Part shown: positions 13,208 to 26,626 of the stretch, in pieces
How positions within the stretch are numbered: the first letter of the stretch is position 1
How the letters are laid out: each line of letters begins with the position of its first letter
Translations under genes and position numbers: made by a program
Notes under the pieces: generated by a model
The model's input: the letters and a program-made list of their open reading frames with translations, nothing else
Told to the model about the DNA's origin: nothing
Database searches by the model: none
Assembly: GCA_013178155.1 (NCBI GenBank)
Contig: JABLXH010000035.1
Span: forward strand, 1 to 46,064
Direction of reading: 5' to 3'
Source: Armatimonadota bacterium
GTDB lineage: Bacteria > Armatimonadota > Zipacnadia > Zipacnadales > UBA11051
DNA length: 46,064 nucleotides

Positions 13208-13436
13208 GCCAACCCTCACCCCGGTAGGCGGGACGGCTGCAGGTCAACCCTCTTCCCGGTAGGCAGGGCATCCTGCCCCGCCGTCGTTGTCCATGCCGGA
13301 CTGGACCGGGCGGTAGAGGATACCCCCGGCACCGGGGGGGCGGGGCAGGATGCCCCGCCTACCAAACGTGGGGCACACGGGGCAGGATGCCCCGCCTACC
13401 GAGGGTAAGGGACATGGGGCAGGATGCCCGCCTACC
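13203..13436. repeat. Cluster of GC-rich palindromic repeats between convergent genes
   Basis: The gap 13208-13478 holds a family of short hairpin repeats with core GGGGCAGGATGCCCC followed by GCCTACC. Direct copies lie at 13341-13363, 13378-13400 and 13415-13436 (the last lacks one C). An inverted copy at 13258-13282 (GGTAGGCAGGGCATCC...) pairs with 13339-13363 over 25 bp with one mismatch, spacer 56 bp. Degenerate GGTAGGC starts lie at 13203 and 13223. Each core is itself a perfect 6-bp stem with a 3-base loop. This looks like a REP/BIME-type element cluster; its position between two 3' ends is typical, and it may also terminate both transcripts. Confidence 0.75.
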
Positions 13437-13478
13437 GAGGGCAGGAAACAGTCGAACGGATGTTTCACGTGCAACAAC

Positions 13479-22474: not shown

Positions 22475-25400
22475 ATGCGAGCCTGTTGCCTGCCCATCAT
22501 CATGGCCCTGGCCCTGAGCTGGGGCGCCGCCTGGGCCCAGCCAGCCCCCGGCCCCTTCGCTCCCGACGAGCATACGCTGCTGCTGTACCACTTCGATGAG
22601 GGCGAGGGCACCGTCGCTCACGATGCCAGCGGCCGCGGGCAGGACGGCCTGCTCAAGGGCGCGCAGTGGGCCAAAGGCAAGTTCGGTGGCGGACTGTGGT
22701 TCGACGGGACCGACGATTCCGTCTTCCTGGAGCATCCGGATGCGCTGCGCAATCTGCCGCAGATCACCGTGGAGTGCTGGTTCAACCAGGAAGCCACCTG
22801 GGGCCGGCGCTTCCTGGTGGGGCATGACGTGGGATTCCATTTCGAGGTGGATGATGCCGCCGGCATGTCCATCTCGCTGTACAACCAGGGGGGCGCGGTC
22901 AACAATGCCGAGGGCAAGCCCCACCAGCAGGTCGCCATGGGCGGCGTCTCCATCCGCCCCGGCCGCTGGCACCACCTGGCCATCACCTACAACGGCCGCG
23001 AGGTCGCCTACTTCCTGGACGGCGTGCTGCGCGGCCGTCGCACCGATGCCCCGAAGGACTTCCTGCTCGGCGCCCAGTCGCGGGGTCTGTGGGTGGGCTG
23101 CTATGTGGACATGGACTACTACTTCAGCGGGCTGATTGACGAGGTGCGCGTGTCCGATGTCGTGCGCTATGACCCCGAGGGGGCTCTCCAGCCCGGAGGC
23201 AAGGTGTTTGACATGCCCCAACCCACCCACCCGCTGCGCGCCGCGTCCGCCGTGCGAACCCCGCAGACCACCGGCCAGGCCACGCTCAAGCTGACCCTCA
23301 AGCAGCTCTGGGGCGACAGCGCCGAGGGCTGGGTCTGCCTGAAGCCCCCTGGCAAGCCCGCCGCCATCGTAGGGCAGTACCAGTGGACCGAAAAGCCAGC
23401 CGGCCCGGTGGAGCTGAGCTTCGACGTGTCCGATGAGGCGACTGCCGACGGCACCTACCTCGTGGGTTTGAAGCATGTGAAGGGGTGGTACTACGCCCTG
23501 ACTGCCGCGGAGCTGGTGCGTGCCGGGAAGACGGTCGGGAAGTGGACTGGCGAGGCGAGGGTGCGCTGGACCTTCCAGCCACCGGTCCTGGCGGCGGTCG
23601 AGGTCGGGCCGCCGCGCGGTAGGAGCGCTCACCAGAGCGCGATGCCTTCCGCCAGCCACGCGGCTAGTCGCGCTCAGGTGAGCGCTCCTACCGACGGCCT
23701 GCTGCTCCTCCCCGCTGATGCCGACTGGGTCACCGGGGCCCTGGAGCTGGACCCGGGCGAGGCAGGCGAGACACCGCTGATGCTGGGCGATGGTTCCTGC
23801 GAATGGTGGCTGCACGTGCCGGAGGACACCATCTACCGCGTCCACCTGCGCTATGCCGCTGCCGCGGCCCGTCCCTGCGACATCGTCATTGATGGCGACG
23901 ACCTCAATGACTACAACATGTGCGCCCTCAACGTCACCGGGCGCAGCACCGCTCGCGACGCCTTCTGGGAGTACCAGGGCACCGTCAGCCTGAAGGCCGG
24001 GACGCATTGGCTGCGCCTGCAGGACGTGCTGCCGGACGTGGTGGCGCTGTGGCTGGAGCCGACGGACCGCCGGCCGGAGCGGAAGGTGCCGTGGGCGCGG
24101 TTCTCCTCCTGGGACACGCTGCCCGGCGCTGCAGACTGGCAGGTGCATCCGGAGTTTGGCGACGCCTCGGGGCGGGTCGAGGCCCGAGGCGAGGCGCTGG
24201 TCTTCGCCGCCGAGTTTCGCAACACGGACCCCGGGCATCTATTCGCCGGCGACCGCGTTCGCTTCACCTGTCCCGGCAAATGGGACCTCGAGCCCTGCGG
24301 CCGGCTTGACTTCACCTTCCAGGGCACGGGGAGTGGGCATGTCGCCGCGCTCTCGGCGGTGGACGCCAAGGGCGATGAGAAGCTGCTGTGGCGACACCGC
24401 GACACCCAGACCGAGCCAGTGGAGGTCGCTGCGCCGCTGAACTTCGAGGGCAACAATGTGTTCGATCCGGCCCGCGTGGTGGCCCTGTGCCTGGACCTGG
24501 ACGAGGGCAACGAGCAGCCTGCCACGCCCCATAGCTGGCAGGTAACGCTGGGCGATCTGGCTTTCGTCCGGCGGGACGTGCTTGCCGAGCCGCCCGACCT
24601 CCGGGAACGCCAGCGGACCGCTCTGCAGGCTGTCAGCGCGCACCAGCAGCGCCTGTTGCCACTCACCTATGACCTCACTCCTGCGAAGGTGCGACGCTGG
24701 GCCCGGCCCGTCATTCCCGAGCAGCACCCGCTCTTTGCGGCCACCGAGCCCAGACCCGTCACCCGCGCCACCATGGGCATGAATCTGGAGTTCACCGGGG
24801 CCCGCGACATCTCGGCGGGCGCCATGAAAAGCTTCCACGAGGACTACGACTTCGGCCGCGTCTGCTGGCCTCATATCGGCATCCTGCCCCAGCGCCGGAA
24901 CTTCCAGACCGACGAGCAGTACCAGGCCGCCCTGGCGCAGATGGAGGAGCGCCTGCGCGATGTGGAACGACGCGGGCTGTGGCTCTTTGACATCTGGGGC
25001 TATGTGCCCTTCGGCGAGGCCGGACCGACGCCCCGCGTGGAGCCTGAACACCATGCGGCGCTGCTGCGCGTTTTCGGGCATCGGTTCCTGGGCTATGACA
25101 ACGGCGAGCAGGATGGGCGGTACATCGGGTCCTACGCGGACCGGGGCAGCTTCACCGACCGCCGCGGCGGCTGGGAGGACTTCGTCAAGTGGGATGAGGG
25201 CATCTGCAATGACAGCATGAACTACATGAACGCCACTGGGTCGCTGAACTACTCGCATTACTACGGTGAGCGCGGGGCGCGGATGCTGGGCCTGGAAACC
25301 GCTCAGGGCCTGCCCAGCGACACCCTCATGTTCGCCTTCCTGCGTGGCGCGAGCAAGCAGTACGGCCGCCTGACCTATCAGGCCACCTCCATCTGGAACC

Positions 25401-26626
25401 GCTTCGGGTACAACATGTACCACGAGCGCCGGACCGAGGGCGGCGGGGGTTACGGCCAGGGCCCCCACAAGGGCTGCTCGCTGTCGCTGCACAAGCGGCT
25501 GTTCTTCCAGAGCTACACCGGCGGCGACAGCATCGTCGGCACGGAGACCGCGCAGTTCACCGGCGACCAGCTACCAAACGGCGCCCAGGAGCTGAGCCCC
25601 CTGGGCCGGCAGCACCTGGAGATCAAAGAGTGGGTGGAAAAGCACCCCGACCGTGGGGTCCTCTTCACACCGGTAGCCTTCATGCTGGATTTCTACAACG
25701 GCTGGAACATGCCGCGTCACCTGTACCGGAGCGACAAGTACAAGATCTGGGGCAAGCTGCCCTATGAGAAGGAGGACTACGCCATTGACCAGTTCTTCCG
25801 CCTGGTCTGGCCGGGGTATGAGGACTGCAGCTACCTGCGCAACGAGCGCGGGTTCATCACTCCGACACCCTATGGCGACATCTTCGATGTGGTGACCAAC
25901 CGCTGTCGTCCCGACATCCTGAAGCAATACACGACCCTGATACTGCTGGGCGAGGTCGAGATCACCCCGGAGGTGGCGGCGAACCTGGAAGGCTTTGTCC
26001 GCGACGGCGGCGATGTATGGGTTGACGCCCGCGGCGCGGCGCAGCTACCGGCGGCGCTCACCGGGCTGACGCTGGGCGAGCAAGCCCAGGCCTGCACCAC
26101 GGCCTGGCTGGGGAACACCACGCCCTTCGCCGAGCGGCCCTACACCTACACGGTGGCCACCCTGGCGGGCGCCCAGCCCAAACTCATCAACGAGGCCGGT
26201 CATCCGGTCATCACCGTTCAGTCCGTCGGCGAGGGTCGGGTGTTTGTCTGTCTGGCCGACCACTGGATGACGGACAGGCTGGAATATGCCGAGCCGAAGC
26301 TGGTCAACATGGAGCCGCCGTACCGGCTGCTGAAGGGCGTGGAGCGCTATCTGGACTACTACCTGCGCCAGTTTCTGCCGGTCACGGTGGAGCCGGCTGG
26401 GCTGAACGTGCGGGTCAACTGCTATGGTGACGACCCGCAGCGCCTCCTGGTCTCGCTGACCAACAACGAGCTGTTTGCGGATTGGGAGGGTCAGGTCCGG
26501 CTGCGCAGTGGCACGGTGACCGCGGTGCGCGACCTGCGCCGCGAGCAGGCGCTGGAGCCAGCCGCCCTAAGCAAGATGCGCGTCCCGGCGGGGGATGTGG
26601 CCCTTTTGGACGTGCGGGTGGAATAG
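22475..26626 (+). CDS. Giant secreted LamG-containing glycosidase-like protein with in-frame palindromic insert
   Basis: A 1383-residue exported protein; signal peptide ACCLPIIMALALSWGAAWA. Residues about 25-240 are a LamG/concanavalin-like lectin domain (LLLYHFDEGEGTVAHDASGRG ... SGLIDEVRVSDVVRYD). A beta domain follows (265-380), then the 25-residue product of a palindromic DNA insert (382-406), then a CBM6-like sandwich (about 413-535, VPEDTIYRVHLRYAA). Residues about 750-1100 look like a TIM-barrel hydrolase (FGRVCWPHIGIL, DIWGYVPFGEAG, GYDNGEQDGRYIGSY). A Rossmann-like trimerisation-type domain comes next (TTLILLGEVEITPEVAANLEGF, about 1150-1260), then a C-terminal beta module. The overall plan resembles GH42-like enzymes, but I cannot assign catalytic residues. 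It probably forms an operon with the upstream CehA gene. Confidence 0.85.
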   Translation: MRACCLPIIMALALSWGAAWAQPAPGPFAPDEHTLLLYHFDEGEGTVAHDASGRGQDGLLKGAQWAKGKFGGGLWFDGTDDSVFLEHPDALRNLPQITVECWFNQEATWGRRFLVGHDVGFHFEVDDAAGMSISLYNQGGAVNNAEGKPHQQVAMGGVSIRPGRWHHLAITYNGREVAYFLDGVLRGRRTDAPKDFLLGAQSRGLWVGCYVDMDYYFSGLIDEVRVSDVVRYDPEGALQPGGKVFDMPQPTHPLRAASAVRTPQTTGQATLKLTLKQLWGDSAEGWVCLKPPGKPAAIVGQYQWTEKPAGPVELSFDVSDEATADGTYLVGLKHVKGWYYALTAAELVRAGKTVGKWTGEARVRWTFQPPVLAAVEVGPPRGRSAHQSAMPSASHAASRAQVSAPTDGLLLLPADADWVTGALELDPGEAGETPLMLGDGSCEWWLHVPEDTIYRVHLRYAAAAARPCDIVIDGDDLNDYNMCALNVTGRSTARDAFWEYQGTVSLKAGTHWLRLQDVLPDVVALWLEPTDRRPERKVPWARFSSWDTLPGAADWQVHPEFGDASGRVEARGEALVFAAEFRNTDPGHLFAGDRVRFTCPGKWDLEPCGRLDFTFQGTGSGHVAALSAVDAKGDEKLLWRHRDTQTEPVEVAAPLNFEGNNVFDPARVVALCLDLDEGNEQPATPHSWQVTLGDLAFVRRDVLAEPPDLRERQRTALQAVSAHQQRLLPLTYDLTPAKVRRWARPVIPEQHPLFAATEPRPVTRATMGMNLEFTGARDISAGAMKSFHEDYDFGRVCWPHIGILPQRRNFQTDEQYQAALAQMEERLRDVERRGLWLFDIWGYVPFGEAGPTPRVEPEHHAALLRVFGHRFLGYDNGEQDGRYIGSYADRGSFTDRRGGWEDFVKWDEGICNDSMNYMNATGSLNYSHYYGERGARMLGLETAQGLPSDTLMFAFLRGASKQYGRLTYQATSIWNRFGYNMYHERRTEGGGGYGQGPHKGCSLSLHKRLFFQSYTGGDSIVGTETAQFTGDQLPNGAQELSPLGRQHLEIKEWVEKHPDRGVLFTPVAFMLDFYNGWNMPRHLYRSDKYKIWGKLPYEKEDYAIDQFFRLVWPGYEDCSYLRNERGFITPTPYGDIFDVVTNRCRPDILKQYTTLILLGEVEITPEVAANLEGFVRDGGDVWVDARGAAQLPAALTGLTLGEQAQACTTAWLGNTTPFAERPYTYTVATLAGAQPKLINEAGHPVITVQSVGEGRVFVCLADHWMTDRLEYAEPKLVNMEPPYRLLKGVERYLDYYLRQFLPVTVEPAGLNVRVNCYGDDPQRLLVSLTNNELFADWEGQVRLRSGTVTAVRDLRREQALEPAALSKMRVPAGDVALLDVRVE
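23618..23692. repeat. 75-bp palindromic element inserted in frame in a coding sequence
   Basis: Left arm GGTAGGAGCGCTCACC (23618-23633) and right arm GGTGAGCGCTCCTACC (23677-23692) are perfect 16-bp reverse complements. Inward of a single A/A mismatch, GAGCGCGA and TCGCGCTC (8 bp) pair too, leaving a 25-nt loop region. The element is exactly 75 bp, begins on a codon boundary (codon 382) and adds 25 Ser/Ala-rich residues (GRSAHQSAMPSASHAASRAQ...) without a stop. No obvious target duplication flanks it. Its GGTAGG...CCTACC ends match those of the repeat cluster near 13.3 kb. Confidence 0.85.

Follow-up and report, generated by a model that had tools for sequence, protein, structure and literature searches.

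The 75-bp palindrome at positions 23618-23692 of the window (the whole stretch of 46,064 nucleotides that was analysed) is a REPIN of a low-copy GTAG-type REP family. The reading that we prefer, with a probability of about 0.93, is that this REPIN was moved by a RAYT, that it was inserted in a linker of a large LamG protein, and that it belongs to a small number of frame-preserving intragenic survivors of its family. Judged from the sequence, the element is most probably an in-frame mobile-element insertion in its host gene, because the orthologues do not have the 25 residues that it encodes and because the REP family is linked to a RAYT.

The element (no strand assigned) consists of two head-to-head 26-bp GTAG-type REP units separated by a spacer of 23 bp. 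The left unit, GGTAGGAGCGCTCACCAGAGCGCGAT, occupies positions 23618-23643 on the plus strand and is identical to the consensus (0 mismatches), and the right unit, GGTAGGAGCGCTCACCTGAGCGCGAC, occupies positions 23667-23692 on the minus strand with 1 mismatch; the unstranded spacer lies at positions 23644-23666, and its sequence varies among the copies. The 26-bp consensus unit is GGTAGGAGCG[C/G]TCACCAGA[G/C]CGCGAY. Each unit is an imperfect palindrome composed of a small hairpin, GCGSTC-ACCA-GASCGC, that adjoins a GTAG tag; GGTAG opens both arms of the 75-bp element, so GTAG forms the outer end of each unit. Among 48 units, most keep the GTAG tag, and the stem pair 10/19 covaries (C-G in 26 units, G-C in 18). 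The inverted doublet folds as a single hairpin with a DNA folding energy of -34.7 kcal/mol (z = -9.05), and none of 200 shuffled sequences folded as well. The paired stretch comprises 26-nt arms at positions 23617-23642 and 23668-23693, 25 nt apart and complementary at 25 of 26 positions, including one extra C-G pair just beyond the element. The start of the element is at a codon boundary, as (23618-22475)/3 = 381, and it encodes residues 382-406 (GRSAHQSAMPSASHAASRAQVSAPT). The perfect 16-bp arms, the length of 75 bp, the coordinates and the in-frame placement between codons given in the earlier note were thus all right.

At ≤3 mismatches, the 5.53-Mb genome contains 45 copies of the REP unit, 14 of them exact matches to the consensus, whereas a reversed-pattern control returned 0; the palindrome is therefore not a product of chance, and the proposal of a dispersed, evidently mobile palindromic family is borne out. 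Nine head-to-head pairs spanning 63-95 bp were identified in the genome. As the other units are mostly singlets, the family looks like a decaying population. A pattern for whole REPINs, made of two 9-bp ends without mismatch and an intervening gap of ≤40, matched only one short 30-bp element; the chance expectation of the 9-mer GTAGGAGCG within the window, one mismatch being allowed, is uninformative. Only one of 100 other genomes contained the REP unit; this genome belongs to the same family and has 2 copies at ≤2 mismatches. A second GTAG-type REP family (GGTAGGCGGGGCATCCTGCCCC) was also observed. It forms a cluster at positions 13214-13445 of the window, between convergent ORFs, and has 35 copies in the genome at ≤3 mismatches (control 0); no second RAYT for this family was found in the genome.

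The host gene, located at positions 22475-26626 on the plus strand and encoding 1383 amino acids, was delimited with the open reading frame, Pfam, orthologues and codon statistics. The latter favour the plus frame in both flanks of the element (0.34 and 0.44 per codon), the best antisense scores being -0.02 in the left flank and 0.10 in the right one. A LamG domain (Laminin_G_3) was detected by Pfam at residues 77-231, and two further beta-sandwich regions flank the insert. The protein has a conserved C-terminal region, and its C-terminal half gave no Pfam match. As regards the description of this product as a giant secreted protein, its size and its LamG domain are established, and its secretion is suggested by a signal-like N-terminus recognized by eye.

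Between conserved motifs, the linker measures 36 residues here and 14-17 residues in the orthologues that cover it, which come from records of Armatimonadetes, Planctomycetes and Lentisphaerae; the named orthologue records are mostly from Armatimonadetes, one Candidatus Zipacnadia among them, and on this evidence the genome very probably belongs to Armatimonadota. In one further protein, returned by both orthologue searches, the linker is 23 residues long. The alignment across residues 382-406 that the earlier note had called for thus shows the 25 residues to be missing from all the orthologues covering the linker. With 25 residues encoded by the element but 4-5 residues fewer in the rest of the linker, the linker has gained about 20-22 residues in all; at this divergence, the shortening may reflect either a small loss at insertion or drift. 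It is important to mention that the closest orthologues are only about 53-66% identical and include no near-identical empty site, so that, given also the shortening, the junction can be placed only approximately. Residues 255-560 were modelled using AlphaFold2 with 14 orthologues. Two beta-sandwich regions were predicted with confidence, and pLDDT dropped to values under 50 over fragment residues 130-151 (residues 384-405 of the protein), a stretch that almost coincides with the insert (fragment residues 128-152). In the model, the 25 residues are predicted to be disordered and to link the two beta-sandwich domains, in agreement with the proposal of an insertion in an interdomain linker.

Two Y1-transposase genes were found in the genome. 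The first, at C130:18250-18726, is a RAYT according to the NCBIfam equivalog model NF047646 (106.8 bits, cut-off 80) and is the sole RAYT of the genome above that cut-off; it is related to the E. coli TnpAREP of solved structure 4er8 (E = 1.6e-10). One REP unit lies 13 bp downstream of this gene and a 95-bp REPIN lies 23 bp upstream, an arrangement that constitutes a REPtron. The tyrosine region (YLEYMLGNPVRAG) is present in the predicted protein, whereas the position of the HUH motif reads H-L-R (PDHLRL) where 4er8 and the genes of two relatives have H-x-H. Because H-L-R replaces HUH, the RAYT may be inactive now, perhaps only recently so; the change may also be a consensus error in the assembly. 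The second gene, at C113:66448-66783, encodes an IS200-like TnpA with an intact H-x-H. It is bracketed by a GC-rich hairpin repeat (GGGGGTTGAAACCCCC... / GCGTCCCTGCGGGACGC) unlike the REP family, in a TIRtron-like arrangement.

The missing second histidine of the RAYT, together with the presence of an IS200-like TnpA with an intact motif, could suggest that the palindrome is a MITE-like element moved by a transposase other than the RAYT, for example the TnpA at C113. We consider this very unlikely, since the repeats around the C113 gene are of another kind and the RAYT is bracketed by units of the REP family at 13 and 23 bp. Moreover, no consistent target-site duplication was seen in the flanks inspected.

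A home-made codon-usage gene caller, which called 88% of the fetched stretches as coding, yielded 34 REP loci, and a locus was regarded as internal when both of its flanks were coding in one shared frame. As the earlier note implied, other in-frame intragenic copies exist: a gene of glycosyltransferase family 9 (GT9) carries a 68-bp REPIN, and single REP units lie in a GH38 alpha-mannosidase gene, in an ABC-F ATPase gene and in a GT2-like gene (the first three assigned with Pfam, the last by eye). Orthologues of the GT9, GH38 and ABC-F proteins do not have about 25-27, 26 and 20 residues, respectively, at the REP site. The frame of the GT9 gene is kept, even though 68 bp is not a multiple of three. 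The GH38 and ABC-F inserts each show a single clear REP unit, the 3' one, and inspection by eye gave no convincing 5' partner. A tail-to-tail REP pair was also observed at C135:33514-33580, between two amidohydrolase-like modules that share one open frame; this sixth internal case is possibly a fusion of two adjacent genes across the REP. The intragenic calls at C116, C143, C5, C90, C2 and C130 lie at about ≤35 codons from the predicted N-terminus and were set aside as likely start mis-calls, and those at C32 and C168 were set aside as well, being weakly coding on one side.

Only 5-6 of the 34 loci are thus internal, against about 30 expected at 88% coding. The binomial probability of this depletion is about 1e-20, and still 1e-10 with the 14 loci that the caller placed inside genes, figures that give its direction and rough size only, given the home-made caller and loci that are not fully independent. 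The head-to-head pairs (63-95 bp) occupy all three length classes modulo 3. The REP unit is free of stop codons in two of the three frames on each strand, and the start at a codon boundary therefore means little, being one of two surviving phases. The suggestion that the family prefers frame-preserving insertion is contradicted by these data, as the family is strongly depleted from genes and multiples of three are not enriched among the lengths. Chance insertion followed by purifying selection suffices for the in-frame pattern.

Two related proposals can be weighed against the same data. In the first, REPINs would serve as linker-making DNA, the LamG, GT9, GH38, ABC-F and GT2 inserts being kept since disordered residues help, and the RAYT either having an atypical H-x-R metal site or being domesticated; we give this little credence. 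The second, in which insertion into linkers is itself directed or preferred so as to preserve the frame, is more improbable still: at least five in-frame internal copies are known, the best resolved of them in linkers, but the rarity of internal loci and the absence of a bias to multiples of three oppose it, and survivorship accounts for the pattern. Finally, the 25 residues could be read as a long-conserved coding insertion whose DNA is palindromic by coincidence or because of a role in RNA structure. This reading fits an intact, in-frame protein but can be practically dismissed, since every orthologue covering the linker is without these residues and since the genome has 45 copies of the unit, most of which lie outside genes.

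Under the preferred reading of a RAYT-moved REPIN, the element would have been moved in trans by the single RAYT of the genome, the C130 gene being the presumed mover, through single-strand transposition as proposed for REPINs. It would have entered the linker that joins two beta-sandwich domains in the large LamG protein, and the gene would have stayed open because 75 bp is a multiple of three and the arms have no stop in the frame used. The host protein would have gained a Ser/Ala-rich disordered stretch and probably retained its function. Most intragenic insertions would have been purged by selection, leaving a few frame-preserving survivors in linkers.

REPINs have been described as RAYT-mobilised REP doublets (PMC3116915), and TnpAREP recognises GTAG (PMC8266576). 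Di Nocera and co-workers reported GTAG REPs in 2013 from several phyla, the PVC group among them; more than half of the intragenic ones are dimers or groups, encoding 20-30 residues, and the authors suggested that linkers can make intragenic REPs neutral and drew a comparison with Rickettsia RPE (PMC3733652). The view that in-frame palindromic elements are rare is dated, as several species are known to carry GTAG REPs inside genes (PMC3733652). The present element resembles the GTAG REP dimers or REPINs with RAYTs of Pseudomonas, Xanthomonas and Opitutus terrae (PMC3116915, PMC3733652) in its outer GTAG, palindromic units and head-to-head pairs, as well as in a RAYT flanked by cognate units and in a mostly intergenic distribution with some in-frame copies coding for 20-30 residues. 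It differs from them in its new sequence family, its low copy number, its very probable occurrence in Armatimonadota and the altered HUH motif of its RAYT. Like the Rickettsia palindromic elements RPE-1, RPE-4 and RPE-6, it is palindromic, in frame and adds a peptide. RPE-4 and RPE-6 have been assigned to the CGTC superfamily and have no transposase of their own (PMC3733652), whereas the family described here, compared by tag alone, has GTAG ends and a linked RAYT; the CGTC tag is absent from the consensus unit. None of the papers searched linked Armatimonadetes with RAYT or described a REPIN-RAYT system from that phylum.

The element is a clean new example of a type of event already described, not a new phenomenon. 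It adds a REPIN-RAYT system, very probably of Armatimonadota, and a series of REP insertions that keep the frame and are confirmed by their absence from orthologues. A codon-boundary, in-frame position need not imply targeting, and these insertions provide test cases for the tolerance of proteins to mobile-element peptides in linkers.
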